Source: a virus. From it: a stretch of 20,348 nucleotides of DNA. Numbering within the stretch: the stretch's first letter is position 1; every line of letters begins with the position of its first letter. This document shows positions 1,175-20,348 of this stretch, one piece after another. The stretch is taken from positions 1 through 20,348 of IMG/VR virus record IMGVR_UViG_3300021091_000515. One strand, written 5' to 3'. Below the pieces are notes generated by a model. It was not told the DNA's origin, did no database searches, and saw nothing but the letters and a program-made list of their open reading frames with translations. Both the position numbers and the translations under genes were made by a program.

Positions 1175-1765
1175 ATGAATAAGGGATTATTAATAGAGAC
1201 ACATTTGTTTGAAGCCAAAATGGTTGAACAAGATAATGGTACTTATTTAGTTAAGGGTATCCTACAAAGAGCAGGTGCACCTAATCAAAATAATAGAAGA
1301 TACCCAAAAGAAATCTTACAAAGAGAGTGTAAAAAATACGAACAACTTATAAAAGAAAGAAGAGCATTGGGTGAGTTGGACCATCCAGATTCCCCTGTTA
1401 TTAACCTTAAAAATGTTTCTCATAATGTTAGAGAAATAGCTTGGGATGGCGATGATGTGGTAGGTATAGTAGAAGTACTTTCAACACCATCCGGTAATAT
1501 CCTTAGAGAATTATTAAAAAATAATATTCGTTTGGGTATTAGTAGTAGAGGGTTAGGTTCTGTAAAAGAACTTAATGATGGCACATTAATGGTTCAGGAA
1601 GATTTTGAATTGGTAGGTTGGGATTTTGTATCAAACCCATCTACACATGGTGCATTTATGGCACCAATAAATGAATCAAAGCAGTGGGCTAAAGTTGCAG
1701 AAGAATGTGGTAAGTGGTGTAAATCACAAGACCTTATGAGAGAAATTATAATTGAATTAAACTAA
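1175..1765 (+). CDS. 21: Prohead core protease, T4 gp21-like
   Basis: A 196-residue serine protease of the T4 gp21 family (peptidase U9/S77 type, HK97-protease-like fold). In the prohead it digests the scaffold core and trims the capsid protein N-terminus during maturation. Visible hallmarks, in order: NNRRYPKEILQRE (about 39-51); GELDHPDSPVINLKNVSH (about 66-83) with the likely catalytic His70; a hydrophobic strand with STPSGNIL (about 103-110); and GISSRGLGSV (121-130) carrying the nucleophile Ser (123/124). A DFELVGWDFVSNPS segment follows (about 143-156), matching the family's IDIV..PS region. Length is close to T4 gp21 (about 212). An L-F-E/A site at residues 11-14 fits self-processing. 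It is followed by helper genes and then by its substrates, the scaffold and capsid protein. Confidence 0.93.
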   Translation: MNKGLLIETHLFEAKMVEQDNGTYLVKGILQRAGAPNQNNRRYPKEILQRECKKYEQLIKERRALGELDHPDSPVINLKNVSHNVREIAWDGDDVVGIVEVLSTPSGNILRELLKNNIRLGISSRGLGSVKELNDGTLMVQEDFELVGWDFVSNPSTHGAFMAPINESKQWAKVAEECGKWCKSQDLMREIIIELN

Positions 1766-1770
1766 TAAAA

Positions 1771-2034
1771 ATGGCAAAGTTAATAAATCTTATACCTAGT
1801 AAAAAAATCAATCCAAAAGTAATAAAAGAAGATTTAGAAGATATGGATGTAGCAATTCCATCTAAAGTCGAAAGATTTTTAGATAGAGCATTAAACGTTA
1901 TCAAATCATATAACTTAGGTAGAAGAAAAGAACAATTGGTAATTGCAAAATTAGTAGATGCATTGGGTATGACTCCACAAGAATTAGCACAGGCCGTTCA
2001 AAGATTAAAAAAATATAAAATTGTAAAGAGATAA
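1771..2034 (+). CDS. Small basic helical protein, unknown
   Basis: An 87-residue protein with no family I can name. It is predicted helical, with a basic C-terminal half (about 50-87: RRKEQLVIAKLVDALGM, then TPQELAQAVQRLKKYKIVKR) that superficially resembles a small helix-turn-helix or winged-helix segment. Nothing else supports DNA binding. The A-rich start context (aataaaaATGG) is typical of this genome. It lies five bases after the prohead protease and two bases before the next gene, so it is co-transcribed with the head genes. A minor head or assembly factor is the contextual guess; function is unknown. Confidence 0.7.
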   Translation: MAKLINLIPSKKINPKVIKEDLEDMDVAIPSKVERFLDRALNVIKSYNLGRRKEQLVIAKLVDALGMTPQELAQAVQRLKKYKIVKR

Positions 2035-2036
2035 TT

Positions 2037-2465
2037 ATGATAAAGTTAAAAGACCTTTTGAATGAGGAAGAAGAATTTCAACAACTTCCTACCGAAATCA
2101 AAAAACACTTTTTAGAAATAATTTCTACATTTGGTCAATTTAGAGAGCAAATGACTAGAAAATCCGATATCAGAACTATTGCAGAAACGTTGGGTGGTAT
2201 TGCTGATGCGGCACAAGAATATACTTTAAGAGAAGGCGGTGATTGGTTTGATAGAGTGACTATTAAAAGAAATATGAAAGAGTTAAAGGCTTTGCATGAA
2301 AAATTCCAAAAGGAATCATTAGAAGCAAAAGCACAAGAACAAAGAATGGAAGCTCTTTATGAAGATATGGGACACGTTCTTAATAGATATTTTGAAATAG
2401 CAGATGTTTCGGAAGAAGTTATGAGAAACAGATTAGGATTAAAAGAATCTAAAAAGAAAAAATAA
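2037..2465 (+). CDS. Putative internal head protein with capsid-targeting-like N-terminus
   Basis: A 142-residue, charged, largely helical protein ending in a Lys-rich tail (KESKKKK). No family is recognised. Its N-terminus, MIKLKDLLNE followed by an acidic EEEEF stretch, resembles the short capsid-targeting sequences of T4 internal head proteins. Those are about 10 residues long and end in an I/L-x-E site cut by gp21; here L8-N9-E10 would be that site. The gene lies between the prohead protease and the scaffold, which suits a core or internal protein. Coiled-coil propensity is high at about residues 75-120. The internal-protein role is inferred from the N-terminal pattern and position only. 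Confidence 0.7.
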   Translation: MIKLKDLLNEEEEFQQLPTEIKKHFLEIISTFGQFREQMTRKSDIRTIAETLGGIADAAQEYTLREGGDWFDRVTIKRNMKELKALHEKFQKESLEAKAQEQRMEALYEDMGHVLNRYFEIADVSEEVMRNRLGLKESKKKK

Positions 2466-2470
2466 TAATA

Positions 2471-2842
2471 ATGGAAGAATTAGCATCCTTATTATTACAA
2501 AGTAGAACACAAGCACATTCATTCCATTTAGGTGTTAGAGGTGTAGGAGCATATTCGGCACATGTTGCATTGGGTGAATATTATGATTCTATCGGTGGTT
2601 TAATTGATGGGTTGGTAGAAGTATATCAGGGTAAAGAAGGATTGATTCAATTATCTGGCATAGGAGTATTAGATAAAAACAACGATATTAAAAACATAAT
2701 TAACTATTTTGAAAAATTATGTAGTATGGTTGCAAAGTTAAGACAAAATTCAAAATTACAAGATAGTTGGATTCAAAACGATATTGATACAGTAGTATCC
2801 CTATTATATAGAACAAAATATAAGTTAGTAAATCACCAATAA
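2471..2842 (+). CDS. Dps/ferritin-like four-helix protein
   Basis: A 123-residue protein resembling a minimal Dps/ferritin-like fold and a group of short phage proteins of this type (possibly Pfam DUF5856; name from memory). The diagnostic stretch is residues 14-55: a first helix with QAHSFHLGVRG, then AHVALGEYYDSIGGLID and a Glu in VEVYQG. This H-x6-YYDxIxxLIDxLxE pattern is the Dps ferroxidase/helix B pattern (compare HxxxxxxYxxxxxxxDxxAE). A second half of two helices follows (about 75-120). Dps proteins bind iron and protect DNA; whether this one oxidises iron is untested, and it is shorter than bacterial Dps (about 150-170). It sits in the head operon directly before the bS21 gene, seven bases away. 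I am fairly sure of the fold, not of the activity. Confidence 0.7.
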   Translation: MEELASLLLQSRTQAHSFHLGVRGVGAYSAHVALGEYYDSIGGLIDGLVEVYQGKEGLIQLSGIGVLDKNNDIKNIINYFEKLCSMVAKLRQNSKLQDSWIQNDIDTVVSLLYRTKYKLVNHQ

Positions 2843-2848
2843 AAAGTT

Positions 2849-3046
2849 ATGTTGATTATTGATGTAAAAGATGGAAACATCGAAAGAGCATTAAAAGCTT
2901 ACAAAAATAAAGTTAAAAGCGTAAAGCAAATCGAACAACTTAGAGATAGAAAAGAGTTTGAAAAACCATCTGTAACTAAGAGAATCAAGATACAAAAGGC
3001 AATAAGAAAAGAGAAATTACAAAATATTTTTGATAAAAACAAATAA
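2849..3046 (+). CDS. rpsU: Phage-encoded ribosomal protein bS21
   Basis: A 65-residue protein matching small-subunit ribosomal protein bS21 over its whole length. It opens MLIIDVKDGN, close to the Bacteroidota bS21 opening (MLII.VKDGE), and continues with IERALKAYKNKV, EQLRDRKEFEKPSV and a basic helical tail. The F-x-KPS followed by basic residues is the bS21 signature, and length is normal for the family. bS21 sits on the 30S platform near the 3' end of 16S rRNA and the anti-SD, where it affects initiation. Phage-encoded bS21 is known from metagenomic phages and is thought to replace the host protein late in infection. The gene closes the head-core transcription unit, 43 bases before a terminator. 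No SD-like sequence precedes its ATG. Confidence 0.9.
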   Translation: MLIIDVKDGNIERALKAYKNKVKSVKQIEQLRDRKEFEKPSVTKRIKIQKAIRKEKLQNIFDKNK

Positions 3047-3088
3047 TTTCTTTAGTTTTCTAAAAAATTTATATATTTATTTTCGAAT

Positions 3089-3113
3089 ATCCTATTCTAT
3101 ATAGGATTTTTTT
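3089..3113 (+). terminator. Rho-independent terminator after rpsU
   Basis: A seven-base-pair stem, ATCCTAT (3089-3095) with ATAGGAT (3101-3107), has a five-base loop and is followed by a run of T's to 3113. It separates the head-core unit from the scaffold/capsid unit. The stem is short and AT-rich, so it may be leaky. Confidence 0.75.
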
Positions 3114-3230
3114 ATAAAACTTAGTTGGTTAATGAATACCCTTCTCTATAAGGAGTGACCGAACAACCGACAAAATATCATTGAAGTTCCACAATACAAT
3201 AACTTCACAGGAACAAAATACATTTTAAAA
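3114..3230 (+). promoter_or_regulatory. Structured 5' leader of the scaffold-capsid unit, with a mini-ORF
   Basis: This is part of the longest gene-free stretch here. Two foldable elements are visible. GTTGGTT (3124-3130) can pair with AACCGAC (3165-3171, one G-T wobble), enclosing a small CCTT/AAGG hairpin (3140-3153). TGAAGTT (3182-3188) can pair with AACTTCA (3201-3207), in competition with GTTCC (3186-3190) pairing to GGAAC (3210-3214). The first element holds an eight-codon reading frame, M-N-T-L-L-Y-K-E with TGA (3132-3158), and an SD-like AAGGAG (3150-3155) that does not serve gene 22. I see no convincing promoter boxes. A regulatory role is inferred from the structure. Confidence 0.35.
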
Positions 3231-4433
3231 ATGGCAAATTCAAAATTGTTAAAAGAAGCAATCGCAGATGCTAAAGCGGTTAAGGAAACTGCATTGGCTA
3301 ACGCAAAGCTTGCTCTCGAAGAAGCCTTTACACCAAGACTTCAGTCTATGTTAACTCAAAAATTAAGAGCTGAAGCTGAGATGGAAGGTGATGAAAAGCA
3401 AGTTGATGAAGAATTAGATTCAACAGAAATCGGTTCTTCAACTTCTAATCCTGATTTGGAAGCACATACTGAATTCGAAGGTGGTTCTACTGAAACTACA
3501 TCTGGTGAGCCAGGAGCTCAAGTTGCAGATTATAAAAAAGTAGCAGACATCAATGAAGAAGAGGAAGCAGAAGAAAAAATGGATGAAGAAGAATCTGACA
3601 AGGACAAAGAAATCGCTGAACTAAGAGCTAGATTAGCAGAATTAGAAGGCGAAGAAGAAAATCCTATGGAAGAAGAAGATGATGAAATGAACATGGGCAT
3701 GGATTCAGAAGAAGGTGATGGTGAAGAGTACGATGTAACCGGTGAAGAAGAAGAAGATACCGAAGATGACATGGACTTAGAAGCAATCATTAGAGAATTA
3801 GAAGCACAATTAGGAGAAGAAGAAGGTTCTGAAGAAGAATCTCCAATGGATGAAGCAGAAGAGGAAGAAGAAGCTAAGAACGAAAACTTAGCAGATGGTT
3901 CTGAAGCTGGTACAGACAAAGGCGAAGACCCTAAAGTTGTTGTAACTAATGAAGAAGAAGAATCAGATGAAGTTGACTTAGAAGAAATTTTAAGAGAAAT
4001 GGAAGCTGATATGAAAAAAGATGATGAGAAAGTAGATGAAGCTGAAGAAACCGAAAAAGACAAAGAAATCGAAGAAGCTTACAAAACTATCAAATCATTA
4101 CAAAAGACTATCAACGAAGTGAACTTATTGAACGCTAAGTTGTTATTCGCAAACAAATTATTCAGAGCACACAACATGACTAACGAACAAAAAGTCAAAG
4201 TGATTGAAACTTTGGATAGAACAAAATCAGTTAGAGAGGTTAAATTGGTATTCTCTACATTAGCAGAGAACTTCAAATATACTTCAACTAACAAAGTGGC
4301 TAAAAAAGCAATCAAAGAAGGAATCGCAAGTAAAGTAGTTAAATCTACAAAACCTGCAGCAGCTAAGCAAGTAATTGCAGAATCTGCAGATTTCGCTAAT
4401 AGATTTAAAAAATTAGCTGGTATTTTAAAGTAA
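3231..4433 (+). CDS. 22: Prohead scaffolding core protein, T4 gp22-like
   Basis: A 400-residue scaffold protein. The prohead shell assembles around a core of this protein, which the gp21-type protease then degrades. Residues 1-50 are helical (ALANAKLALEEAF). Residues about 50-280 are extremely acidic and Glu-rich with long GAA/GAG runs and several L-x-E protease-like sites. Residues about 283-355 carry the most recognisable segment, INEVNLLNAKLLFANKLFRA, followed by EQKVKVIETLDRTKSVREVK and LVFSTLAENF, a pattern typical of scaffold proteins in environmental T4-like phages. The C-terminus is basic. It is longer than T4 gp22 (269), mostly through the acidic region. The capsid gene follows after 27 bases. 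The acidic stretch gives a long antisense Ser-rich frame that is not a gene. Confidence 0.88.
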   Translation: MANSKLLKEAIADAKAVKETALANAKLALEEAFTPRLQSMLTQKLRAEAEMEGDEKQVDEELDSTEIGSSTSNPDLEAHTEFEGGSTETTSGEPGAQVADYKKVADINEEEEAEEKMDEEESDKDKEIAELRARLAELEGEEENPMEEEDDEMNMGMDSEEGDGEEYDVTGEEEEDTEDDMDLEAIIRELEAQLGEEEGSEEESPMDEAEEEEEAKNENLADGSEAGTDKGEDPKVVVTNEEEESDEVDLEEILREMEADMKKDDEKVDEAEETEKDKEIEEAYKTIKSLQKTINEVNLLNAKLLFANKLFRAHNMTNEQKVKVIETLDRTKSVREVKLVFSTLAENFKYTSTNKVAKKAIKEGIASKVVKSTKPAAAKQVIAESADFANRFKKLAGILK

Positions 4434-4460: not shown

Positions 4461-6080
4461 ATGGACTTAAAAAAATTAATGACCGGAGCAAACCCTCAAA
4501 GCATTATGCTTGAGCAAACTCGTGGTTTAAAATCAAAATGGGAAAAGACTGGCCTTTTAGAAGGTGTAAAGTCTGAAACAACTAAGCACGGAATGGCAGT
4601 GTTGTTAGAAAACCAAGCAAAACAATTATTGGATGAAGCAACTAAAACTGGTGTAGCTTCAGGTTCAGAAGAGTGGGCTGGTGTAGCATTACCTTTAGTA
4701 AGAAGAATTTTTGGTTCAATTGCAGCGAAAGAATTCGTTTCAGTTCAACCAATGAACTTACCTTCAGGTCTTATTTTCTACATGGACTTCAAATACGCTA
4801 CTGACCAAGCTGGTACTCCATCTTTCTCTGGCTCATCTTTATTTGGTAAAGGTGGTGCTTTCGGTAAAGATTCATTAGATTCTAACGCAACTAAATTGGG
4901 TTCTACTCAATTTGCTCAAGAAGGTCTTTACGGAGCAGGTAGATTTGGATACACAATCAACGATTCGTCTGTAGCTTTAGATGCAACTGTAGCATCTGCT
5001 TCTTGGGTAGATGTTAACTTTGATGCTGATTTATCAGCTTCTTTAGCAGCAGGTAAAGTAAAGAAAGTTGTTGTAGCAACTCCATCTGATGCAGATTTCA
5101 ACGGCGTAAGAGCTTTCGAAATTGCACAATCTGGTTCTGCAACTGCAGGATATTTCCCTCAATACACTAAGATTAATGGTTCTAACGTAGAATTCATCGT
5201 ATCTGGTTCAGCAGGTGGTATTAACGCAGGTGGTGCGACTTTATCTTACCACAAGCAACCAACTGATATTAGTAGAGGTGATTTCGAAGATAGAAACGCT
5301 GATTTCACATCAAACATCGGTATTCCAGAAATCGAATTAGAATTGAAATCAGAGCCTATCGTTGCTAAGACTAGAAAGTTAAAAGCAGTATGGACTCCTG
5401 AATTGGCGCAAGACTTGAACGCTTACCATTCAATCGATGCAGAAGCTGAATTAACTCAAATGTTATCTGAATATATCTCTTTAGAGATTGATTTAGAAAT
5501 CTTAGAAATGTTACAAGCTAACGCATTCACAACTGATTATTGGTCAGCAAGAGTTGGATACGATTTCAACACAGCTACAAACAGCTTTGAAATCGATTCT
5601 TCAGCAGCAGCGGCTTCAGCTTACGTTAAGAGTACTTGGTTTCAAACTTTAGGTATCAAATTACAAAAAGTATCTAATAAGATTCACCAATTGACTATGA
5701 GAGGTGGTGCAAACTTTATAGTAGTATCTCCAAACGTAGCAACTATCTTAGAATCAATGAATGGTTTCTCTGCAAATCCTGGTAAAGACGCTTTACAATT
5801 TGCTGCAGGTGTAACTAACATTGGTACAATTTCAAATAGATACGAAGTTTACAAAAACCCTTATATGACTGAGAACGTAATCTTATTAGGTTTCAAAGGT
5901 TCTAACTTCTTCGAAACAGGAGCAGTTTACGCACCATATGTACCATTGATTATGACTCCATTGGTTTATGACCCAATGAACTTCACTCCGAGAAGAGGTG
6001 TGATGACTAGATACGCTAAGAAAATCGTAAGACCAGAATTTTACGGTAAGATTATCGTTGATGGTATCAATACTTTATAA
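4461..6080 (+). CDS. 23: Major capsid protein, T4 gp23-like
   Basis: A 539-residue HK97-fold capsid protein of the T4 gp23 family (T4: 521). Recognisable segments are FVSVQPMNLPSGLIFYMDF (about 93-111), aligning with T4 VQPMNSPTGQVF, and the spine-helix region VAKTRKLKAVWTPELAQDLN, AYHSIDAEAELTQMLSEYIS and LEIDLEILEML, closely matching T4's TRALKAEYTVELAQDLKAVH region. The C-terminal shell strands include YKNPYMTENVILLGFKG and PRRGVMTRYAKK. The stretch at about 165-270 (small, Ser/Gly/Ala-rich, beta) corresponds to the insertion domain. The N-terminus has several L-x-E sites; L57-D58-E59/A60 lies where T4 is cut (E65/A66), so the mature protein probably begins at Ala60. It is followed by a strong terminator, as expected for the most abundant virion protein. 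Confidence 0.95.
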   Translation: MDLKKLMTGANPQSIMLEQTRGLKSKWEKTGLLEGVKSETTKHGMAVLLENQAKQLLDEATKTGVASGSEEWAGVALPLVRRIFGSIAAKEFVSVQPMNLPSGLIFYMDFKYATDQAGTPSFSGSSLFGKGGAFGKDSLDSNATKLGSTQFAQEGLYGAGRFGYTINDSSVALDATVASASWVDVNFDADLSASLAAGKVKKVVVATPSDADFNGVRAFEIAQSGSATAGYFPQYTKINGSNVEFIVSGSAGGINAGGATLSYHKQPTDISRGDFEDRNADFTSNIGIPEIELELKSEPIVAKTRKLKAVWTPELAQDLNAYHSIDAEAELTQMLSEYISLEIDLEILEMLQANAFTTDYWSARVGYDFNTATNSFEIDSSAAAASAYVKSTWFQTLGIKLQKVSNKIHQLTMRGGANFIVVSPNVATILESMNGFSANPGKDALQFAAGVTNIGTISNRYEVYKNPYMTENVILLGFKGSNFFETGAVYAPYVPLIMTPLVYDPMNFTPRRGVMTRYAKKIVRPEFYGKIIVDGINTL

Positions 6081-6174: not shown

Positions 6175-6188
6175 CTTATATTTATAAG
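6175..6188 (+). promoter_or_regulatory. Intergenic inverted repeat containing ATATTTATAA, candidate promoter element
   Basis: CTTATA-TT-TATAAG is a perfect inverted repeat 20 bases before the neck-protein ATG and after the capsid terminator. It contains ATATTTATAA, which recurs exactly or nearly in other gaps of the window (3073, 11047, 14697, 15517, 18395). Because the preceding unit is terminated, a new start of transcription is expected hereabouts. The motif is the reverse complement of a T4-late-like TATAAAT, so its orientation is unclear. AT-richness makes chance matches possible. Confidence 0.35.
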
Positions 6189-11092: not shown

Positions 11093-13969
11093 ATGGCACA
11101 AATTATTAAACACAGACGTGGTAGTTTAGAAGCCCTATCGGCGGTAACATCATCCCTTCAGAAAGGTGAGATAGTAATCGCATCAGGCTCATCCAACTTA
11201 TCAGTATCTAATGGAGCATCGATTGTATTCGCAGTTCCAGAAAACGGACAGGTACAAGCGGTAAATAGAGTACTTAGAGGTACTGCCGCTCCATCCAACT
11301 TTGCTTCAGCAACTTATAATGGATTAGTAGATGGTGTTCCTTACTACGCAAGTGGTAGTTCTACCTTATTTTTACTTGGTTCAGATGGGAATGAAGCTAT
11401 AAACTTAGTTGGTAATATTCAACCCTTCTCCACTTCAGTAAATAGTAGATTAGGTACGATTGAGACATCACTTGGCGGTGGTGGTTCAATCGGAACAAGG
11501 GTTTCAGCATTAGAAGCAACTTCAGCATCATTAAATTCATTTACTCAATCATTTTCACAAAGTGTTGCAAGTGATTTGAGTTCGAGTAACGCTGCTACCG
11601 CAGCTAACCTATCTTCGTATAGTGCTTCAGCAGCATCTTCATTAGCAAATACAGATGCAAATATATCATCTTTATCAACATCAATTGATGGTAGAGTAGA
11701 TAAATTAGAAGCATCTCAATCAGCATTTGATAATGCAGTTATAGTAAGTGGACAAAATGTAACAATTAATGGTAATTTTGTTGTAAGTGGTACTACAACT
11801 ACTGTGGATTCAACAACCGTTAGTATCGGAGATAATATTATTTCTCTTAATGGTACTGGCGGTGCATATGGTGGTATTGAGGTAAAAGACCCAACGGCAC
11901 CAAATACGGTATCAGGTTCTTTATTGTGGGATACTGCACATGACCGATGGATTGCAGGCCCTAAAGGCGCTGAATCTAATATTTTATTAGCAGGTGGTGA
12001 TAATGTAGTTTCTGGTTCATCTCAAATCACAATTTCTTCTACTACTGGATTCTCTGATTTCTCTTCTTCATTAGCAGCTAAAGATGCACAATTATTCGCA
12101 TCTGCATCTGACCACGAAAGTAGAATTGATACAATAGAAGCTTCACTTGGTGGTGGCGGTTCAATAGGAAGTAGAGTATCTAATTTGGAAGTTCACTCTG
12201 GCTCTATAAATTCATTCACTCAATCATACTTCACCGATTCAGCATCATTCGATACAAGAATCGATAATGTAGTAAGTGATTTAAGTTCAGTATCAGGCGC
12301 ATTCGCAGTAAGTGTTTCAGCATCTAAAGCAGAATACACAGCATTTAGTGCAAGTGCAGCAAGTAATCTGAGTGCAGTTAGTGGAGCATTCGCTTCAACT
12401 GTTGCTAACTTAAATTCGACATTCGCAACTGATGCAGAATTAAGTACTGTTTCTGGTGCATTCGCTACAACAATATCAAACTTAGGTTCAACATTCGCAA
12501 CCGATGCAGAATTATCAGCAGTATCAGCAGCAGTAGCAGTTAGAGATGCAGGACAGGATACAGTAATAACAAATTTAAGTTCATCTGCAAACGCAAGATT
12601 AACTTCATTAGAAAATAAATCAGGTAGTTTAGCAACTACTGGTTCAAATACATTCATCGGAACTCAAACTATAAGTGGTTCATTAAATGTTAGTGGTTCA
12701 ACTAACTTTAACGGAGCCGTAGCAGTTAATGATGCTAATATGAACTTGACAAATAGTTCTTCATTGAACTTAACTTCAGGTTCTTCAATTTATGTTAGTG
12801 CAGAAGGTAGTATTAGTGGTTCTATCGCAGGTATTGGAAATGTAACAACATTTAGTTCATCAGTAAATAGTAGATTATTAACAAACGTAGATTCAGCAGC
12901 TGGAGCATTCGCAAGTGCAAGTGCACATAGTGCTAGTTTAGCATCTACAATCAATACTTTATCAACATCAGTTGATAGTAGATTAGATACAATCGAAACT
13001 TCACTTGGTGGAGGCGGTTCTATTGGTGCAAGAGTATCTTCATTAGAAGCAACTTCAGCATCGTTAAACGCATCCGCTTCTAACCACGAAGGTAGAATTG
13101 ATATCTTAGAAGCATCACAATCAGCATTTGATTCCGCTATTACTTTAAGTGGACAAAACGTAACTATTGCTGGTAATTTGACAGTAGCTGGTACACAAAC
13201 AATTGTAGACTCAACAACTGTTCAAATAGGTGATAATATTATCGAATTGAATGGTACGGGAGCACAAAATGGTGGTTTATTGGTTAAAGATGTAACCGCA
13301 CCAAACACTGTAAGTGGTTCATTACTTTGGGATTCAACAGGTGACTTCTGGAAAGCAGGAGCATTAAATTCAGAACATAGAATTTTAACTGTAAATGATG
13401 GCGTAGTAAGTGGTTCATCACAAATTACAATTTCATCAACAACAGGTTTCTCAACGTTTGATACCGCAATTTCAACTTCGTTTAGTGCAAGTAATGCTTC
13501 AATCGCAGCAAATTCAGCGAGTATAGCAAGTAGTTTAAATTCTGTTAGTGGAGCATTTGCAACATCAGTTTCAGCAAGTAATGCATCAATAACATCACTA
13601 TCTTCATCAGTAGCAACTTCATTTAGTGGAAGTTCAGCTAGTGTTACCGCATTAAGTAGTTCAGTAGCAACTTCATTTAGTGCAAGTGAAGCTAGTGTAA
13701 CTTCACTAAGTACTTCAGTAGATAGCAGATTAGATGTATTAGAGGGTAATGTAGGACAGGCGTTAAACACAAATAGTAATGTAACATTTAATAGTGTAAC
13801 TGCATCTGTTAACTTAGGCTCAGCAGCAGGAAACACAAAGAGAATAGCATTTAGAAATACAAATGGTAATTTAGATTTAGTACCAACAGCATCGGTATCG
13901 GGTGATTTATTACAATGGAACGGAAGTGACTTTGTAATGAGTAATACAATCGATGGTGGTTCATTCTAA
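11093..13969 (+). CDS. Long repetitive tail fibre protein 1 (958 aa)
   Basis: A 958-residue Ser/Ala/Thr-rich fibre. Residues 1-70 form an RRG-type N-terminal domain (IIKHRRGSLEALSAV then LQKGEIVIASG), the probable virion-anchoring part shared by the fibre family here. Then alternating coiled-coil-like segments and beta blocks follow. ETSLGGGGSIG-type units are at about 124, 348 and 636. A block of about 115 residues occurs twice, at about 214-330 and 682-795 (S-G-Q-N-V-T-I to SGSSQITISSTTGF). A TDAELSAVSAAVAVRDAGQD cassette lies near 470. The C-terminus repeats SVSGAFAxSVSAS units and ends IDGGSF. It has no S74 chaperone. It likely trimerises and contributes to host binding. Confidence 0.82.
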   Translation: MAQIIKHRRGSLEALSAVTSSLQKGEIVIASGSSNLSVSNGASIVFAVPENGQVQAVNRVLRGTAAPSNFASATYNGLVDGVPYYASGSSTLFLLGSDGNEAINLVGNIQPFSTSVNSRLGTIETSLGGGGSIGTRVSALEATSASLNSFTQSFSQSVASDLSSSNAATAANLSSYSASAASSLANTDANISSLSTSIDGRVDKLEASQSAFDNAVIVSGQNVTINGNFVVSGTTTTVDSTTVSIGDNIISLNGTGGAYGGIEVKDPTAPNTVSGSLLWDTAHDRWIAGPKGAESNILLAGGDNVVSGSSQITISSTTGFSDFSSSLAAKDAQLFASASDHESRIDTIEASLGGGGSIGSRVSNLEVHSGSINSFTQSYFTDSASFDTRIDNVVSDLSSVSGAFAVSVSASKAEYTAFSASAASNLSAVSGAFASTVANLNSTFATDAELSTVSGAFATTISNLGSTFATDAELSAVSAAVAVRDAGQDTVITNLSSSANARLTSLENKSGSLATTGSNTFIGTQTISGSLNVSGSTNFNGAVAVNDANMNLTNSSSLNLTSGSSIYVSAEGSISGSIAGIGNVTTFSSSVNSRLLTNVDSAAGAFASASAHSASLASTINTLSTSVDSRLDTIETSLGGGGSIGARVSSLEATSASLNASASNHEGRIDILEASQSAFDSAITLSGQNVTIAGNLTVAGTQTIVDSTTVQIGDNIIELNGTGAQNGGLLVKDVTAPNTVSGSLLWDSTGDFWKAGALNSEHRILTVNDGVVSGSSQITISSTTGFSTFDTAISTSFSASNASIAANSASIASSLNSVSGAFATSVSASNASITSLSSSVATSFSGSSASVTALSSSVATSFSASEASVTSLSTSVDSRLDVLEGNVGQALNTNSNVTFNSVTASVNLGSAAGNTKRIAFRNTNGNLDLVPTASVSGDLLQWNGSDFVMSNTIDGGSF
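12491..12562 (+). repeat. Fibre cassette copy 1 (TDAELSAVSAAVAVRDAGQD type)
   Basis: A stretch of about 70 bases encoding the ATDAELSAVS...VRDAGQDT cassette. Closely similar copies occur in two other fibre genes at 17651-17722, 19250-19320, 19717-19786 and 19957-20026. A partial copy (ATDAELSTVSGAF) lies just upstream, near 12425-12465. The shared sequence could be a recombination point between fibre genes. Confidence 0.8.
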
Positions 13970-13976
13970 AAAATAT

Positions 13977-14008
13977 AACCCTCCTCTCCGAAAGGGGGAG
14001 GGTTTTTT
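13977..14008 (+). terminator. Rho-independent terminator after fibre 1
   Basis: AACCCTCC (13977-13984) pairs with GGAGGGTT (13997-14004). The apical part can extend to CC-GAAA-GG, a GAAA tetraloop, and the T tract runs to 14008. This is one of the few GC-rich stretches in the window. It ends the transcript containing the first long fibre, 8 bases after the stop. Confidence 0.92.
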
Positions 14009-14038
14009 AAATTTCTAAATTCTATAATAAAATAAAAA

Positions 14039-14674
14039 ATGGCACAAGAAAACAAAACAATTTTACTTCAAAGAAGGTCCGCAGTTTCGGGTTCAAGACC
14101 GACAACAGGTTCTTTAATTGTTGGTGAAATAGGTTTAAATACCTACGATGGTAAGGCTTTTATACACAAATCTGGTTCAGTTGATGAAGTAGTAGATATC
14201 GTTGTTGCAGGCTCCAATACAAGTGGTAATATTAATATATTAGGTACAGGTTCGTTTGGAGAAGTAAACGTAACTAACGATATAAATATAAGCGGCAGTA
14301 TATATGTAAATAATGATATTGTAGGTTTAGGAGATATTGATTTAGTAGGAGCAGTAACCGCTTCATTCTTTGTCGGTGATGGTAGACACTTAACAGGTGT
14401 TACTGCATCAATGAGACCTGATGATTTTGATTTTAATTCCGAACCATTTGCAGGAACAATCGGATTTATACAGGCAACAGGTTCTCTTTACAAAGTTGCA
14501 ACTACAAGCGATGCAGTAGAATTTAGATATAATGACGTAGTTAAAGGAACATTTACAAACGCAAACGGATTTAGTGGTTCTCTTTATGGAATTGGGGATG
14601 TTTTAGCATTTAGCGGGTCGGTAGCAACTAGACTGGCCGCAGTAGAAGCTGGTATGGATGGTGGAACATTCTAA
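14039..14674 (+). CDS. Short tail fibre protein 2 (211 aa)
   Basis: A 211-residue fibre-type protein. Its N-terminal domain (about 1-50: ILLQRRSAVSGSRPTTGSLI, then VGEIGLNTYDGKAFIHKSG) is clearly paralogous to the next gene's. A beta-repeat region follows (GTGSFGEVNVTNDINISGSI, then NDIVGLGDIDLVGAVTAS) with the FFVGDGRHLTGV element common in phage fibres. The C-terminus ends AGMDGGTF, close to the end of fibre 1. It has no chaperone domain and no enzymatic motif. Terminators bound it on both sides (13977 and 14705), so it appears to be its own transcription unit or at least separately adjustable. Confidence 0.8.
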   Translation: MAQENKTILLQRRSAVSGSRPTTGSLIVGEIGLNTYDGKAFIHKSGSVDEVVDIVVAGSNTSGNINILGTGSFGEVNVTNDINISGSIYVNNDIVGLGDIDLVGAVTASFFVGDGRHLTGVTASMRPDDFDFNSEPFAGTIGFIQATGSLYKVATTSDAVEFRYNDVVKGTFTNANGFSGSLYGIGDVLAFSGSVATRLAAVEAGMDGGTF

Positions 14675-14696
14675 TTTACGATAAACAAAATTTTTT

Positions 14697-14706
14697 ATAT
14701 TTATAA
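14697..14706 (+). promoter_or_regulatory. Recurring intergenic motif ATATTTATAA
   Basis: An exact copy of the decamer also found at 6178 and 15517. It abuts the left arm of the terminator palindrome at 14705 and lies 66 bases before the next gene's ATG. It could be part of a promoter or a processing signal; the function is not established. Confidence 0.3.
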
Positions 14707-14731
14707 AGGTACTATATAGTACCTTTTTTTT
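14705..14731 (+). terminator. Perfect palindrome terminator after fibre 2
   Basis: AAAGGTACTAT (14705-14715) is followed directly by its reverse complement ATAGTACCTTT (14716-14726), then more T's to 14731. The transcript can form a hairpin with a small AT loop and a U tract, so it fits a rho-independent terminator. A 22-base perfect palindrome could also bind a dimeric protein. Confidence 0.85.
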
Positions 14732-14762
14732 GTTATAGAAATTTATAATAGGGACCATAAAT

Positions 14763-15515
14763 ATGGCGCAAACAATTGTATTAAGGCGTTCTGCTCAACC
14801 CGGCAAAATACCAGACACGGGTTCATTAAACTTAGGTGAATTAGCAATTAACACCTATGATGGTAAAATATTCTTTGCCAAATCTGGCTCGTCAAATACA
14901 ATAGAGCAGATTGTAACTACAAACACAACAACAAGTGGTTCAATCACCATAGTTGGTACAGGTTCCTTTGATGAATTGGTTGTAACAAATGATGTACAAA
15001 TAAACAATAGTTTATATGTAGTATCTGATATAGTTGGTAATGGGGATTTAGATGTATTAGGAAGTGTATCAGGTTCAGAATTAAGAATAACTGGTACAGG
15101 TTCATTCGAATCCCTTCAAGTAAACGATACTCTAATTGTAAATCACGGTAGTACAATAATAAGTGGTTCTCAATTAGTAACTTCCGATTTGACCGTTTTA
15201 GGACAAGTTAACGCAAGACAATTCAATATTTCAATAATATCTTCATCGGTATTATATGAAAGTGGTAGTTCAAACTTCGGTAATTCTTTAGATGATACAC
15301 ACACATTTACAGGTTCACTTAATATAACAGGAAGTGTAACTGCATCTTATTTTGTAGGCGATGGTGGTGGATTAACTAATTTATCAGTAGATTTATCAAC
15401 GGCTCAATTAAACAATGTTGATGGAAATGATATTCCTAATCGTTCATTTGCAGAATTATATTTAGCATGTGCTACATCAACGGCAATAGAAGTAGATTTG
15501 GATTTTAATATTTAA
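14763..15515 (+). CDS. Tail fibre protein 3 (250 aa)
   Basis: A 250-residue fibre protein paralogous to fibre 2. The N-terminal domain has IVLRRSAQPGKIPDTGSLNL followed by GELAINTYDGKIFFAKSG. It shares the GTGSFDELVVTNDVQINNSL and GDLDVLGSVSGS beta repeats, adds a GTGSFESLQVNDTLIV unit and a VLYESGSSNFGNSLDDTHTF unit, then TGSLNITGSVTASYFVGDGG. The C-terminus differs, ending with NRSFAELYLACATSTAIEVD and LDFNI, which lacks the DGG(S/T)F end and may be a distinct tip. It likely forms a short beta-rich fibre or adaptor between longer fibres. The next fibre gene begins 26 bases later without a terminator between them. Confidence 0.8.
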   Translation: MAQTIVLRRSAQPGKIPDTGSLNLGELAINTYDGKIFFAKSGSSNTIEQIVTTNTTTSGSITIVGTGSFDELVVTNDVQINNSLYVVSDIVGNGDLDVLGSVSGSELRITGTGSFESLQVNDTLIVNHGSTIISGSQLVTSDLTVLGQVNARQFNISIISSSVLYESGSSNFGNSLDDTHTFTGSLNITGSVTASYFVGDGGGLTNLSVDLSTAQLNNVDGNDIPNRSFAELYLACATSTAIEVDLDFNI

Positions 15516-15516
15516 G

Positions 15517-15526
15517 ATATTTATAA
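15517..15526 (+). promoter_or_regulatory. Recurring intergenic motif ATATTTATAA before fibre 4
   Basis: An exact copy of the decamer in the 26-base gap between fibre 3 and fibre 4, 15 bases upstream of the ATG. This is too close to leave room for a normal -10 promoter plus leader, so if functional it may be an mRNA or translation signal here. Confidence 0.25.
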
Positions 15527-15541
15527 AAAAGAATAAAATAG

Positions 15542-18394
15542 ATGGCATCAATTTTTAAATTAAGGCGAGGTTCAGGTTCCGTAGATTTGGAAGAAGGCGA
15601 ATTGTATGTAAATTACAGTAGTTCTTTACAATACGGAGATTTGGATGATGTAGAGGTTACATTATTACCATTATCAAAATCAGTATCGGGTGATATAAAC
15701 TTAACAGGTAGTATTAATTTAAGCGGAAGTTTAAGCGCATCTTATGTTTATATTACCAACGATTTATATGTATCCGGTAATTTATACTTAGGTAACGAAA
15801 CAACCGATAAAATTGAAGCGAAGGGAGAATTCCAATCACATTTGATACCAAACCCAACTGAAACATATGATTTAGGTTCTCAAAGTAAAAAATGGAAAAA
15901 TTTACATGCAAATAGTGTAACCGCATCTATAAGTGGTAGTATTAATAATATTGATATAACATTATTTTCTACATCAGTAGACGGTAGATTAAATTTGGTA
16001 GAGGTAACTGCTTCGTATTTAAATAATACATTTAGTTCTTCAGTAAATAGCCGTTTAGATTTAGTAGAATCTACATCATCTTACTTAAATACAACATTTT
16101 CAACTTCGGTAGATTCGAGATTGAATGTAATAGAAGGACCATTTTCAACTTCGGTAGATGCAAGATTGAATGTAATAGAAGGACCATTTTCTACATCCGT
16201 TGATAGTAGATTGTATTTAGTAGAAGTAACTGCATCCTACTTAAATACAACATTTAGCAGTTCAGTAGATGAAAGATTGGGTTTAGCAGAATCTACATCA
16301 TCTTACTTAAATAATACATTTAGTTCTTCAGTAGATAATCGTTTAGAATTAGTAGAAGCAACCGCATCCTATTTAAATACAACATTTAGCACTTCAGTAG
16401 ATAGTAGATTAGAAACACTAGAAAATGCGGCAACTTCCGATGATGGTAGATTAGATGCTTTAGAAGCATATTCGGCATCTTTAAAAACCGCCATATCAGC
16501 AAGTGGACAGGATTTAATTGTTTATGGTAACCTAACTGTGCAGGGTACACAAACTTCATTAAATGTAAATGAAGTATTTATTGAAGATAAAACATTAACA
16601 TTAGCAAGTGGTTCAGCAACTGCGGCAGCAGCTGATGGGGCTGGTATCCATATAGCTGGCGCAAATGTTACAATGAGTTGGGATAATAATAATAGTAGAA
16701 TAAACTTAAACAAATCATTCTATGTAAATGGCGATTTAAGTGGTTCTACATTAATTGGTATTGGAAATGTAACAACTTATTCAACATCAGTAGATGCTAG
16801 ATTAAATGTAGTTGAAGCAAGTGCATCTTTATATATTGAATTTTCAACTTCAGTAGATAGCCGTTTAGAATTAGTAGAGGTAACTGCTTCGTATTTAAAT
16901 AATACATTTAGTTCTTCAGTAGATAGCCGTTTAGAATTAGTAGAAGCAACTGCATCAGCACTAAATACAACATTTAGTAGTTCAGTTAATTCAAGATTAA
17001 ATTCTTTACAATCATATACTGCTAGTGTTTCAACATCGGTTGGATTATTAGAAGCTACCGCATCCTACTTAAATACAACATTTAGTAGTTCGGTAGACAG
17101 TAGATTAGATTCAGTAGAAGCATATACCGCATCTGTTTCAACATCAGTTGGATTATTACAATCAACTGCATCATATTTAAATACAACATTTAGTACTTCA
17201 GTAGATGCTAGATTAGATGGGTTAGAAATAGAAAGTGCAAGTTTCAAAACATTTACAGGTTCAGTATTTTATCCTTTCTCAACATCAGTTGATAGCCGTT
17301 TAAATTTAACTGAAGCAACTGCCTCTTATTTAAATACAACATTTAGTACTTCAGTAGATGCGAGATTAGATAATATAGAATTTTCAACAGCTTCATTAAG
17401 TAGTTGGACTGGTTCTACTTTTAATACATTCTCCTATTCTGTAGATTTAAGATTGGATGGTGTAGAATATACTGCATCATTATTTGGTGGAGGATTGATT
17501 GCACAATTAGATGTAATTAATAATGCAACCGCATCATTACAATTAGTAAGTGCATCTTTACTTACCTTTACTTCTTCATACTATACTGATTCGGCATCAT
17601 TTAATGGTAGAATAGTTACGTTAGAACAATTTAGTTCATCATTAAACGCAACATTTGCAACTGATGCAGAATTAAGTGCAGTATCTGCGGCAATAGCAGT
17701 AAGAGATGCTGGACAAGATACATCCATTACAACATTATCATCTTCAGTAGATGCTAGATTAGATTTATTAGAAGAAAAAGATATTATAATAAATTTAGGT
17801 GGAGATTTAAGTGGTAGTGGTGTTTCTACAAACTTAGGAACTGTTACATTAAATGGATATATAACGGCAGATTCAGTAGCATTAGGTACTGATACATCTG
17901 GCAGCTATGTACATACTATCGTAGGTACTGCAAATCAAATAACAGTAGCAGGTTCTGGTGTAGAAAAAGCTGATATTACATTATCGTTACCACAAAATAT
18001 ACACACATCTGCAAATCCACAATTTAATTCATTAGGTATAGGAACTGTAGCATCGACAACGGCGGGTGAAATTAGAGCAACAGGCGATATTACTGCGTTC
18101 TATTCATCGGATGAAAGATTAAAACAAAATATCGTTTCTATTCCAAACGCTTTAGAAAAAGTACATCAAATTAGTGGTAATACATTTAATTGGAAAGAGG
18201 GGTACGATGAAATTCATTCTCACAAAGGAAATGATGTTGGGGTAATAGCACAAGAAATTGAACAAATACTTCCTCAAATTGTAACAAATAGGGATAACGG
18301 ATTCAAAGCAGTTCAATACGAAAAAATTATTCCATTATTAATTGAAGCAATAAAAGAATTATCAGAAAAAGTTAATAGTTTAGAAAATAAATAA
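15542..18394 (+). CDS. Long tail fibre protein 4 with C-terminal S74 intramolecular chaperone (950 aa)
   Basis: A 950-residue fibre. N-terminus: SIFKLRRGSGSVDLEEGELY, the shared anchor type. The P-x-x-TYDLGSQSKKWKNL motif sits near 105-125. Residues about 140-305 and 412-640 hold many copies of a repeat of about 22 residues (TFSSSVDSRLELVEATASYL-N-x), separated by a beta block (about 320-405). One TDAELSAVSA cassette lies near 705. The C-terminus is a peptidase S74 chaperone: S856-D-E-R-L-K861 with the Ser/Lys pair five apart as in endosialidase tailspikes, then GNTFNWKEGYDEIHSHKGND, VGVIAQEIEQILPQIV, YEKIIPLLIEAIKELSEKV. By family knowledge it trimerises the fibre and cuts itself off before Ser856, releasing about 95 residues. 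Confidence 0.9.
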   Translation: MASIFKLRRGSGSVDLEEGELYVNYSSSLQYGDLDDVEVTLLPLSKSVSGDINLTGSINLSGSLSASYVYITNDLYVSGNLYLGNETTDKIEAKGEFQSHLIPNPTETYDLGSQSKKWKNLHANSVTASISGSINNIDITLFSTSVDGRLNLVEVTASYLNNTFSSSVNSRLDLVESTSSYLNTTFSTSVDSRLNVIEGPFSTSVDARLNVIEGPFSTSVDSRLYLVEVTASYLNTTFSSSVDERLGLAESTSSYLNNTFSSSVDNRLELVEATASYLNTTFSTSVDSRLETLENAATSDDGRLDALEAYSASLKTAISASGQDLIVYGNLTVQGTQTSLNVNEVFIEDKTLTLASGSATAAAADGAGIHIAGANVTMSWDNNNSRINLNKSFYVNGDLSGSTLIGIGNVTTYSTSVDARLNVVEASASLYIEFSTSVDSRLELVEVTASYLNNTFSSSVDSRLELVEATASALNTTFSSSVNSRLNSLQSYTASVSTSVGLLEATASYLNTTFSSSVDSRLDSVEAYTASVSTSVGLLQSTASYLNTTFSTSVDARLDGLEIESASFKTFTGSVFYPFSTSVDSRLNLTEATASYLNTTFSTSVDARLDNIEFSTASLSSWTGSTFNTFSYSVDLRLDGVEYTASLFGGGLIAQLDVINNATASLQLVSASLLTFTSSYYTDSASFNGRIVTLEQFSSSLNATFATDAELSAVSAAIAVRDAGQDTSITTLSSSVDARLDLLEEKDIIINLGGDLSGSGVSTNLGTVTLNGYITADSVALGTDTSGSYVHTIVGTANQITVAGSGVEKADITLSLPQNIHTSANPQFNSLGIGTVASTTAGEIRATGDITAFYSSDERLKQNIVSIPNALEKVHQISGNTFNWKEGYDEIHSHKGNDVGVIAQEIEQILPQIVTNRDNGFKAVQYEKIIPLLIEAIKELSEKVNSLENK
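15968..16430 (+). repeat. First block of 22-residue (66-base) fibre repeats
   Basis: Tandem copies of a unit reading (T/P)F(S/T)(T/S)SV(D/N)xRLxxxE followed by xTxSYLN(T/N)T. Full units are 22 residues, or 66 bases. Near 16105-16200 two shortened 15-residue units (FSTSVD.RLNVIEGP) occur in a row. The DNA copies are similar but not identical. Twenty-two residues is two hendecads, which suggests a stalk of three-stranded coiled coil. Confidence 0.85.
16778..17480 (+). repeat. Second block of 22-residue fibre repeats
   Basis: More copies of the same unit, here mixed with YTASVSTSVGLLEATASYLN variants near 17015 and 17125. The block is separated from the first by a beta-rich insert (about 16500-16770), so the fibre probably has two stalk segments with a globular node between them. 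Confidence 0.85.
17651..17722 (+). repeat. Fibre cassette copy 2
   Basis: A copy of the cassette encoding ATDAELSAVSAAIAVRDAGQ, followed by a conserved continuation SVDARLDLLEEKDI and TADSVALGTDT. The same continuation recurs in the final gene of the window after its last cassette. Confidence 0.8.
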
Positions 18395-18445
18395 ATATTT
18401 ATACACATACAATAACATTAACGTACTAAAAAAAAGGTAAACTAA
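18395..18445 (+). promoter_or_regulatory. Gap before fibre 5 with ATATTTATAC motif
   Basis: ATATTTATAC (18395-18404) directly follows the stop codon and matches the recurring decamer at nine of ten positions. AAGG at 18435-18438, seven bases before the ATG, is one of the few weak SD-like sequences in the window. No terminator separates fibres 4 and 5. Confidence 0.25.
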
Positions 18446-20348
18446 ATGGCACTTAAATTTAGACGTGGGACGACCGCACAAAAATCAGGTTCGTTAGCAT
18501 TCGGAGAACCATATGTAAATACTTCATTAGGAACATTACAAATTGGTGGCGATTCCGGAGATATTACATTGTCAACAACAGGCGATGGTTCTGCATTTGT
18601 AGGCGCATCTGTATCGGCATCATCTTTTATTAGTGGTTCGGCATTAAAAATAACCGGAAACGCAGTAATTGATGGTAATTTAACATTAGGTGGAGCAATC
18701 ACAATTGGTGATGCAAGTGCTGATACTGTTAATGTTGTCGCAAGTTTGAGTTCTTCACTTATCCCATCAGTAAATAACGCATTTGATTTAGGTTCTCCTT
18801 CTAAAATTTGGAGAGACCTATATATTTCAACAGGATCAATCAAATTTGTTGGAGCAAGTGGAATAAGTGCATCCATTGAATCTAATGGTAGTAGTCGTGT
18901 CAAAATAAATGATGCTGAAATAGGTACAGTTTCTGCATATGGAAGTAATAACAATGGTGACCCAATTATCATTATAAAAAATTCATCCGCTAGTAACGGA
19001 TTAACAATTAATCCTAATGAATTAGGAAATTTTTCATATTTTTATCCTAGCGGATTAGTTAGTTTAAATAGCCTTAATGTAAGTGGTGCAGTAAGTGCAT
19101 CTACTATTACCGGTTTAGGAAATTTAACTACATATTCATCTTCAGTAGCAAGTAGATTAGTAGTTGTTGAAGCAGTTTCAGCATCTGCGGAATCCGCATT
19201 AAATAGTGTAAGTGGAGCATTTGCTTCATCCATTTCTTCATTAGGAAGTACTTACGCAACTGATGCAGAATTATCAGAAGTATCTTCAGCAGTAGCTGTG
19301 AGAGATGCAGCACAAGATGTTCTTATTTCATCTTTACAATCAAATATTTTAAGTGCATCAGTACATACCGCATTCTCAACTTCAGTAAACAGTAGAATTT
19401 CTACTGAAAAAGATAGAGTTGATGCAATCTTATTAGCAGCAGATGCAGATAAAGATTCATTTGCAGAAATTGTAGCATTAATTAATTCGGTTGATACTAC
19501 AAACGATACCGCATTTGCATCATTTTATACATCAAGCAACGCCACAAATACGGCACAAAATGCAAGATTAAATTCATTAGAAGCAGCGACTGGTTCTTAT
19601 GAACTTAAAGGAACAGGAATTGTTAGTGGTTCTTCACAAATTACAATTTCATCCACAACAGGGTATTCAACATTTAGTTCATCAATAGCAACTACTATTG
19701 CAAACTTAGGTTCTGATTATGCAACGGATGCAGAATTATCAGCAGTATCATCAGCAGTAGCAACGAGAGATGCGGCACAAGATGTATTAATTTCATCTTT
19801 ACAATCAAACATTTTAAGTGCATCTGTATTTAATACATTTTCAAATTCAGTAGATAGCAGATTAGACTCAGTAGAGTTGGTATCAGCATCAGCAGCTGGA
19901 GCATTAAATAGTGTTAGTGGAGCATTTGCTTCAACTGTTTCTAACTTAGGAAGTACCTACGCAACCGATGCAGAACTATCAGCAGTATCAGCAGCGGTAG
20001 CTGTAAGAGATGCAGGACAAGATACAACTATATCAACATTATCTTCTTCTGTAAATAGTAGACTGGGTACATTAGAAACAAAAGATATCACAATTACTCT
20101 AACAGGCGATGTGACCGGTACGGGAACAATTACTGATTTGGGTAACGTATCATTTGCTACAACTGTAGCGGCTGATTCAGTAGCATTAGGTACTGATACA
20201 ACAGGTGATTATGTAGCATCATTAGGTAGTGGAACGGGTGTGACTATCGCTTCAAATAGTGGTGAAGGTTCAACACCTACAATTGCAGTAAACTATGGTT
20301 CTTCTGCAAACACGGCAGTGCAAGGTAATACTACTTTAGCATTTGCAG
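18446..20348 (+). CDS. Long tail fibre protein 5, incomplete at the window end (at least 634 aa)
   Basis: The frame opens at ATG 18446 and is uninterrupted to the last base, so the 3' end is missing. N-terminus: ALKFRRGTTAQKSGSLAFGE followed by PYVNTS, the shared fibre anchor. A P-x-x-x-x-FDLGSPSKIWRDLY element (about 108-130) is the counterpart of the YDLGS..KKW motif in fibre 4. Three TDAELS(A/E)VS..AV..RDA cassettes follow, separated by ISSLQSNILSAS and SVSGAFAS segments, and one GIVSGSSQITISSTTGY unit links to fibre 1. The last visible part (KDITITLTGDVTGTG, TTVAADSVALGTDTTG) is paralogous to the section before the S74 domain of fibre 4, so an S74 end is likely downstream of the window. 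Confidence 0.88.
   Translation, partial: MALKFRRGTTAQKSGSLAFGEPYVNTSLGTLQIGGDSGDITLSTTGDGSAFVGASVSASSFISGSALKITGNAVIDGNLTLGGAITIGDASADTVNVVASLSSSLIPSVNNAFDLGSPSKIWRDLYISTGSIKFVGASGISASIESNGSSRVKINDAEIGTVSAYGSNNNGDPIIIIKNSSASNGLTINPNELGNFSYFYPSGLVSLNSLNVSGAVSASTITGLGNLTTYSSSVASRLVVVEAVSASAESALNSVSGAFASSISSLGSTYATDAELSEVSSAVAVRDAAQDVLISSLQSNILSASVHTAFSTSVNSRISTEKDRVDAILLAADADKDSFAEIVALINSVDTTNDTAFASFYTSSNATNTAQNARLNSLEAATGSYELKGTGIVSGSSQITISSTTGYSTFSSSIATTIANLGSDYATDAELSAVSSAVATRDAAQDVLISSLQSNILSASVFNTFSNSVDSRLDSVELVSASAAGALNSVSGAFASTVSNLGSTYATDAELSAVSAAVAVRDAGQDTTISTLSSSVNSRLGTLETKDITITLTGDVTGTGTITDLGNVSFATTVAADSVALGTDTTGDYVASLGSGTGVTIASNSGEGSTPTIAVNYGSSANTAVQGNTTLAFA
19250..20026 (+). repeat. 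Three cassette copies within fibre 5
   Basis: Copies at 19250-19320, 19717-19786 and 19957-20026 encode YATDAELS(A/E)VS(S/A)AVA(V/T)RDA. The first two are followed by QDVLISSLQSNILSASV at near DNA identity, indicating a duplication inside this gene of roughly 470 bases spacing. The third is followed by a different continuation, matching fibre 4. Confidence 0.85.

Follow-up and report, generated by a model that had tools for sequence, protein, structure and literature searches.

A bS21 gene within a phage head-gene cluster

The window, by which we mean the whole 20,348-bp stretch of viral DNA analysed (IMG/VR record IMGVR_UViG_3300021091_000515), contains a single match to ribosomal protein bS21, in an ORF that opens with ATG, closes with TAA and lies among prohead and capsid genes (Table 1). 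Residues 4–55 of the product align to positions 2–54/55 of the Pfam profile Ribosomal_S21 at 49.1 bits (cut-off 27, E = 4.5e-13), which upholds the first-pass annotation of the protein as a full-length bS21, and PHROGs likewise labels it ribosomal protein S21. In a phmmer search of PDB chains its best sequence matches are two Bacteroidota-type bS21s, 9i5v_9 (8e-12) and 7jil_z from F. johnsoniae (1.7e-11). AlphaFold2 predicts two helices (pLDDT 82.7, pTM 0.38), and the seven Foldseek matches to this model all come from mitochondrial ribosome entries and include several chains named S21, at non-significant scores (best E 0.58). We consider it near certain that the product is bS21.

Among cellular proteins the window bS21 is nearest to those of Bacteroidia (53.7 bits), in line with the Bacteroidota-like start first noted for it, whereas bS21s from the same phylum that carry Arg at position 54 score at most 33.7 bits. 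Judged by these matches, the protein is of the Bacteroidia type apart from residue 54. The gene is under purifying selection, with a median dN/dS of 0.163 over 169 pairs and a value of about 0.017 between the window and relative L003.

Table 1 Features of the bS21 locus, in window coordinates
Feature	Position	Strand	Basis
Prohead core serine protease, Peptidase S77	1175..1765	+	PF03420 3.1e-30; phrog_207 1.6e-52
87-aa protein, function unassigned, kept in cluster	1771..2034	+	synteny
142-aa protein, just upstream in all syntenic groups	2037..2465	+	synteny; phrog_368 weak, 0.003
DUF5856 protein, directly before bS21	2471..2842	+	PF19174 3e-13; synteny
Phage-encoded ribosomal protein bS21, 65 aa	2849..3046	+	Pfam PF01165; 7jil alignment; further alignments
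Promoter-like motif ATATTTAT, 26 bases past the bS21 stop codon	3073..3080	+	strand bias, recurrence
Hairpin TCCTAT/ATAGGA, then T7 at 3107-3113	3090..3106	+	two covarying pairs
Two-helix leader element: outer stem 3124-3130/3165-3171, inner stem 3137-3143/3150-3157	3124..3171	+	covariation
Third leader helix GTTCC/GGAAC	3186..3214	+	sequence invariant, no covariation signal possible
Inferred prohead scaffold, acidic, 400 aa, between protease and capsid genes	3231..4433	+	position, synteny
Major capsid protein Gp23	4461..6080	+	Pfam PF07068 1.4e-77

The genes 5′ of bS21 run in the same direction as it, with spacing near zero. A viral scan for bS21 recovered 61 loci. The order S77 protease, 87-aa protein, 142-aa protein, DUF5856 protein, bS21, scaffold, capsid and neck is shared by 34 relatives, judged only as far as each contig reaches and with a few gaps; with the window these form the 35 IMG/VR loci that we refer to as the core set. 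In all 35 the bS21 gene shares its orientation with the S77, scaffold and Gp23 genes, extending the co-linearity with prohead genes that had been noted in the window. The DUF5856 gene is missing from L030–L032, showing that its linkage to bS21 is not strict, and the scaffold candidate gave no profile match and no PHROG hit. The genes for terminase (terL) and portal lie upstream in the 180-kb relative L034.

A second syntenic group (L046–L061) retains the S77, 142-aa, bS21, scaffold and capsid genes; its bS21 is longer and has the N terminus MNKKQKQH... In a further ten loci (L036–L045) bS21 is found in other surroundings. A close relative of the window, L308 (protease 91% and capsid 80% identical), has no bS21 and yet its neighbouring genes are intact, indicating that bS21 is dispensable.

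Farther along the window, positions 11093–20347 are occupied by large repeat-rich, Ser/Thr-rich tail-fibre-like genes. Those at 11093, 15542 and 18446 match one another, and the C-terminal end of the 15542–18394 gene product resembles an S74-type intramolecular chaperone.

A candidate promoter and structured leader follow bS21

Within intergenic DNA the promoter-like motif ATATTTAT has sense-to-antisense counts of 26:0, 14:1 and 13:1 in three long relatives and of 6:3 in the window, and in relatives it stands at fixed places upstream of the portal, scaffold and neck genes. Its strand bias and recurrence make it a good candidate for a phage promoter element. Further sense-strand copies in the window are found at 6178, 11047, 14697, 15517 and 18395, and the motif also occurs in the long relatives G001, G002 and G004. 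It precedes neck and tail genes, as a candidate late promoter of the phage group, and its longer form, TATTTATA, matches the T4 late motif TATAAATA read as the reverse complement.

The first-pass annotation had the operon closed by a terminator after bS21. A hairpin with a T-run is indeed present at 3090–3113; it was not listed by our terminator scan because the scan requires three G–C pairs and the stem has two. That it closes the operon is doubtful, however, since it lies 10 nt downstream of the promoter-like motif and within the conserved leader of the next genes, which weakens the terminator argument. In L016 and L017 the T-run is broken and the stem retained. The hairpin is more likely to form a 5′ stem in the transcript of the next genes, and possibly acts also as a terminator or attenuator that ends some transcripts. 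The motif in the second syntenic group is preceded by a strong terminator and followed by hairpins.

The two-helix element downstream surrounds an invariant AATGAATACC. Three compensatory pairs occur in its inner stem, and the outer stem shows one-sided changes that preserve pairing; the third helix overlaps an alternative TGAAGTT/AACTTCA pairing. Mean identity over the 185-bp stretch between bS21 and scaffold is 91%, compared with 72–82% at the third positions of identical-residue codons in the neighbouring genes. The leader fold as a whole has five compensated pairs, a count reached in none of 500 shuffles, and 99.6% of its cells are paired, as against 43–56% in slid controls. The leader (3081–3230) is conserved in L003–L035 and in L308, where it is retained despite the absence of bS21. 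No Rfam family matched in the window, and the leader had no match among phage records.

Because the motif precedes the hairpin, and because the stretch is conserved, covarying and kept in L308, the region between bS21 and scaffold is likely to comprise a promoter and a structured 5′ leader of the scaffold–capsid genes. A short possible ORF at 3132–3158 begins within the conserved ATGAATACC and would encode MNTLLYKE in the window and MNTLLL in relatives with an extra T. In the Microcystis phage Mel-JY01 the promoter-like motif is followed by a similar stretch, ATGAATACTC...GTGA. The frame could specify a leader peptide, or it could be only a hairpin.

Head genes share both the cluster and the promoter-like motif with bS21, and in other phages transcript data reveal late co-expression of bS21 and head genes (PMC9723584). 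By analogy, bS21 is most likely made from the head-gene cluster late in infection, as had first been suggested from the gene arrangement.

Residue 54 is mostly arginine in the core phages

In F. johnsoniae the bS21 substitution Y54A raises the in vitro translation of a Shine–Dalgarno (SD)-bearing reporter about 3-fold and makes SD-less initiation weaker (PMC9976891); Tyr54 is thus an experimentally tested contributor to the disregard of SD sequences by Bacteroidia ribosomes. The published view is that phage bS21s retain an aromatic-type residue here, all 61 of those examined by Chen et al. (2022) having Tyr, His or Phe as residue 54 (PMC9723584). Alignment of the window bS21 with 7JIL requires a one-residue gap near Gly9, is gap-free thereafter and pairs Tyr54 with Arg53 (codon AGA), a non-aromatic residue, confirming the placement made in the first-pass annotation. 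Of the 35 core loci, 25 have Arg as the equivalent residue (13 distinct sequences), nine have His and one has Tyr, and the window lineage is an exception to the Tyr/His/Phe rule. In the second syntenic group the residue is Phe; among cellular relatives from a similar scan, 45 of 46 have Tyr54.

The bS21-gene tree has only 65 columns and leaves many forks open, and for this reason the distribution of residue 54 was read from a tree built on four head-cluster proteins. There Arg is found in the deepest core branch and in most others, while His and Tyr together make up one nested, supported clade. The single Tyr54 member, L035, is placed differently in the two trees, and its protein stops four residues past Tyr54 through a CAA to TAA nonsense change.

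This distribution bears on the simplest account of the gene, in which phage bS21 serves only to keep 30S subunits complete once the host rpsU mRNA has been lost and residue 54 is drifting. Such a dosage effect would be compatible with the variability of position 54 among phages (R, H, Y and F), with the late assembly and exchangeability of bS21 (PMC9976891) and with a phage gene that has no strong SD. Arg is nevertheless kept across the 13 distinct sequences and in the deep L033/L034 branch, and the residues track clades, which argues against free drift. We consider an effect of dosage alone unlikely.

A Phe occurs eight residues beyond position 54 (Phe61) in all 34 core proteins with Arg or His, and is lost with the tail in the Tyr54 protein of L035. 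This pattern, a single lineage contrast, hints that the contact has been relocated, and Phe61 may partly compensate for the lost Tyr54. Taken further, a phage bS21 without Tyr54 could have rebuilt its contact to the 16S 3′ tail from Arg53 and Phe61, giving phage-specific ribosomes with an anti-SD grip and a choice of mRNAs unlike those of the host; we offer this extension tentatively and think it rather unlikely. The Arg lineage, its His sister clade and the one Tyr member form a natural mutant series, which makes testable both the effect of phage bS21 on translation and the dependence of the anti-SD pocket on Tyr54.

Genes of the Arg-bearing phages are poor in Shine–Dalgarno signals

If Arg in place of Tyr54 stopped the diversion of the 16S 3′ tail, late ribosomes would favour SD-bearing mRNAs, and the behaviour of the Y54A mutant is consistent with this. 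A late shift of that kind was implied in the first-pass annotation. SD signals would then be expected in the phage genes, because Arg53 would free the anti-SD for phage mRNAs.

Ahead of their starts the 475 core-phage genes analysed lack a G peak (0.04–0.14 at −20 to −1) but have one of A between −13 and −11, which is also seen in Bacteroidia cells; the genes of the Flavobacterium phage vB_FspM_immuto likewise lack a G peak. Each ORF was assumed to start at its first ATG; individual starts may therefore be wrong, but all groups were handled alike. Arg-group genes have an SD motif at −19 to −3 in 4.3% of cases (control windows 0.7–1.4%), and 3.1% of them reach a pairing energy of −6 kcal/mol or lower, compared with 4.3% for shuffled upstream DNA. 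No strong SD precedes rpsU in the core phages by computed pairing (−3.4 to +2.1 kcal/mol, as against −6.5 to −13.5 kcal/mol for five cellular rpsU start regions). G peaks are present in the Arg54 cellular genomes, in Mel-JY01 and in the second syntenic group, where SD use is clear (21% of genes versus 0% in control windows) and residue 54 is the aromatic Phe, the opposite of the prediction.

On these grounds we rejected an association of Arg54 with SD use among phage genes. A late shift towards SD-bearing mRNAs finds no support in the Arg-bearing phages' own genes, and an opening of the anti-SD by Arg53 appears improbable.

Arg54 in cellular genomes and the likely host

The relatives come from metagenomic collections and the window record is a fragment, and we infer the host. 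Genomes of the same GTDB phylum were searched with an Arg54 pattern validated on known loci, and 111 of the 395 fitted it, at least one of them by chance. The notion that Arg54 is unknown among cells of the phylum was accordingly rejected, as the residue is common in part of it; the result agrees with a report of Chlorobia without Tyr54 (PMC9976891). The bS21s translated from a sample of these genomes form a type apart ('VGI' or 'MLGVEV'), and the genomes themselves appear to belong to non-Bacteroidia classes.

The phage residue might then be mimicry, the hosts being themselves Arg54 organisms like these other members of the phylum. The abundance of Arg54 in part of the phylum would allow this, as would Mel-JY01, an isolated phage that has an Arg-type bS21 and uses SD signals. 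The core-phage bS21s are, however, far nearer to the Tyr54 proteins of Bacteroidia, and the phage start regions are Bacteroidia-like and unlike those of the SD-using Arg54 genomes. We regard matching to an Arg54 host as highly improbable. The hosts are probably Bacteroidia, as argued from the SD-less, Bacteroidia-like starts of the phage genes. The closest cellular relatives, mostly Saprospiraceae, were rejected as proof of host because the query patterns were taken from the phage protein and are biased, leaving a hint at class level only.

A proposed role for phage bS21

We favour a mechanism in which phage bS21 replaces host bS21 late in infection and supports SD-less initiation, and we give it as a whole an even chance of being correct. 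A lineage of T4-like phages, probably infecting Bacteroidia, would supply its Bacteroidia-type bS21 to 30S subunits, where it would take the place of the loosely bound host protein. The subunits would thereby stay competent for the SD-less initiation needed by phage mRNAs, and the supply of bS21 would come from an SD-less mRNA, outside the SD-based autoregulation of some host rpsU genes. Loss of Tyr54 would alter the hold on the 16S 3′ tail, probably without releasing it for general SD use, and Arg53 (or His) and the conserved Phe61 may assume part of the contact to the tail.

As described by Mizuno et al. (2019), the bS21 of pelagiphage HTVC008M enters E. coli 70S ribosomes and brings their activity down to about 5% (PMC6375957). 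By analogy this value is as compatible with poisoning as with helping, and phage bS21 might oust host bS21 so that host mRNA is poorly translated, with late phage mRNA escaping, for example by way of the structured and conserved scaffold–capsid leader. The HTVC008M test was nevertheless made in a foreign host, whereas the window bS21 is near to Bacteroidia bS21s; the phage itself needs translation late, and the leader is retained in L308 without bS21. Shut-off of the host through bS21 strikes us as decidedly unlikely.

Comparison with known systems

The occurrence of phage bS21 beside virion genes is already known (Chen et al. 2022; Mizuno et al. 2019). What is new here, as read from sequence, is that a phage bS21 of Bacteroidia type is placed co-linearly and has a residue 54 that is not aromatic. 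Clades a–e of Chen et al., huge phages of freshwater Bacteroidetes, also carry a Bacteroidetes-like bS21 near terL, portal, prohead protease and capsid genes, and a late ribosome swap has been proposed for them (PMC9723584). Their bS21 is encoded on the strand opposite the head genes, whereas that of the window runs in the direction of its head genes and immediately precedes scaffold and capsid; at position 54 the core loci have mostly Arg, or His, unlike the 61 of 61 with Tyr, His or Phe.

The survey of Mizuno et al. (PMC6375957) likewise describes phage bS21 under purifying selection, mostly in aquatic phages; in the parts consulted we found no discussion of Tyr54 or the anti-SD pocket. The HTVC008M protein described there is of alphaproteobacterial type, unlike that of the window lineage.

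By capsid protein the nearest isolates are Microcystis phage Mel-JY01 and Flavobacterium phage vB_FspM_immuto. Mel-JY01 (PP395634.1, RpsU WWT39311.1; capsid 57% and protease 61% identical) has a similarly placed, co-linear bS21 with an aligned Arg, but the protein is divergent, more akin to those of Arg54 cells and of the second syntenic group, and the genes have SD-like G peaks. The Mel-JY01 bS21 gene (L195) lies at 5185–5412; because its product resembles Arg54-type Bacteroidota proteins and the gene starts are SD-like, the listed host, the cyanobacterium Microcystis elabens, may deserve checking. vB_FspM_immuto (Immutovirus) has a similar head-gene order, a capsid about 52% identical, SD-less starts and the promoter-like motif before scaffold, but unlike the window it has no bS21 between protease and scaffold. 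Finally, the F. johnsoniae bS21 (7JIL; PMC9976891) aligns with the phage protein over its full length and shares the N-terminal MLII..KDG; the phage protein differs in having Arg53 for Tyr54 and one residue deleted after Gly9, and its gene in being without an SD.
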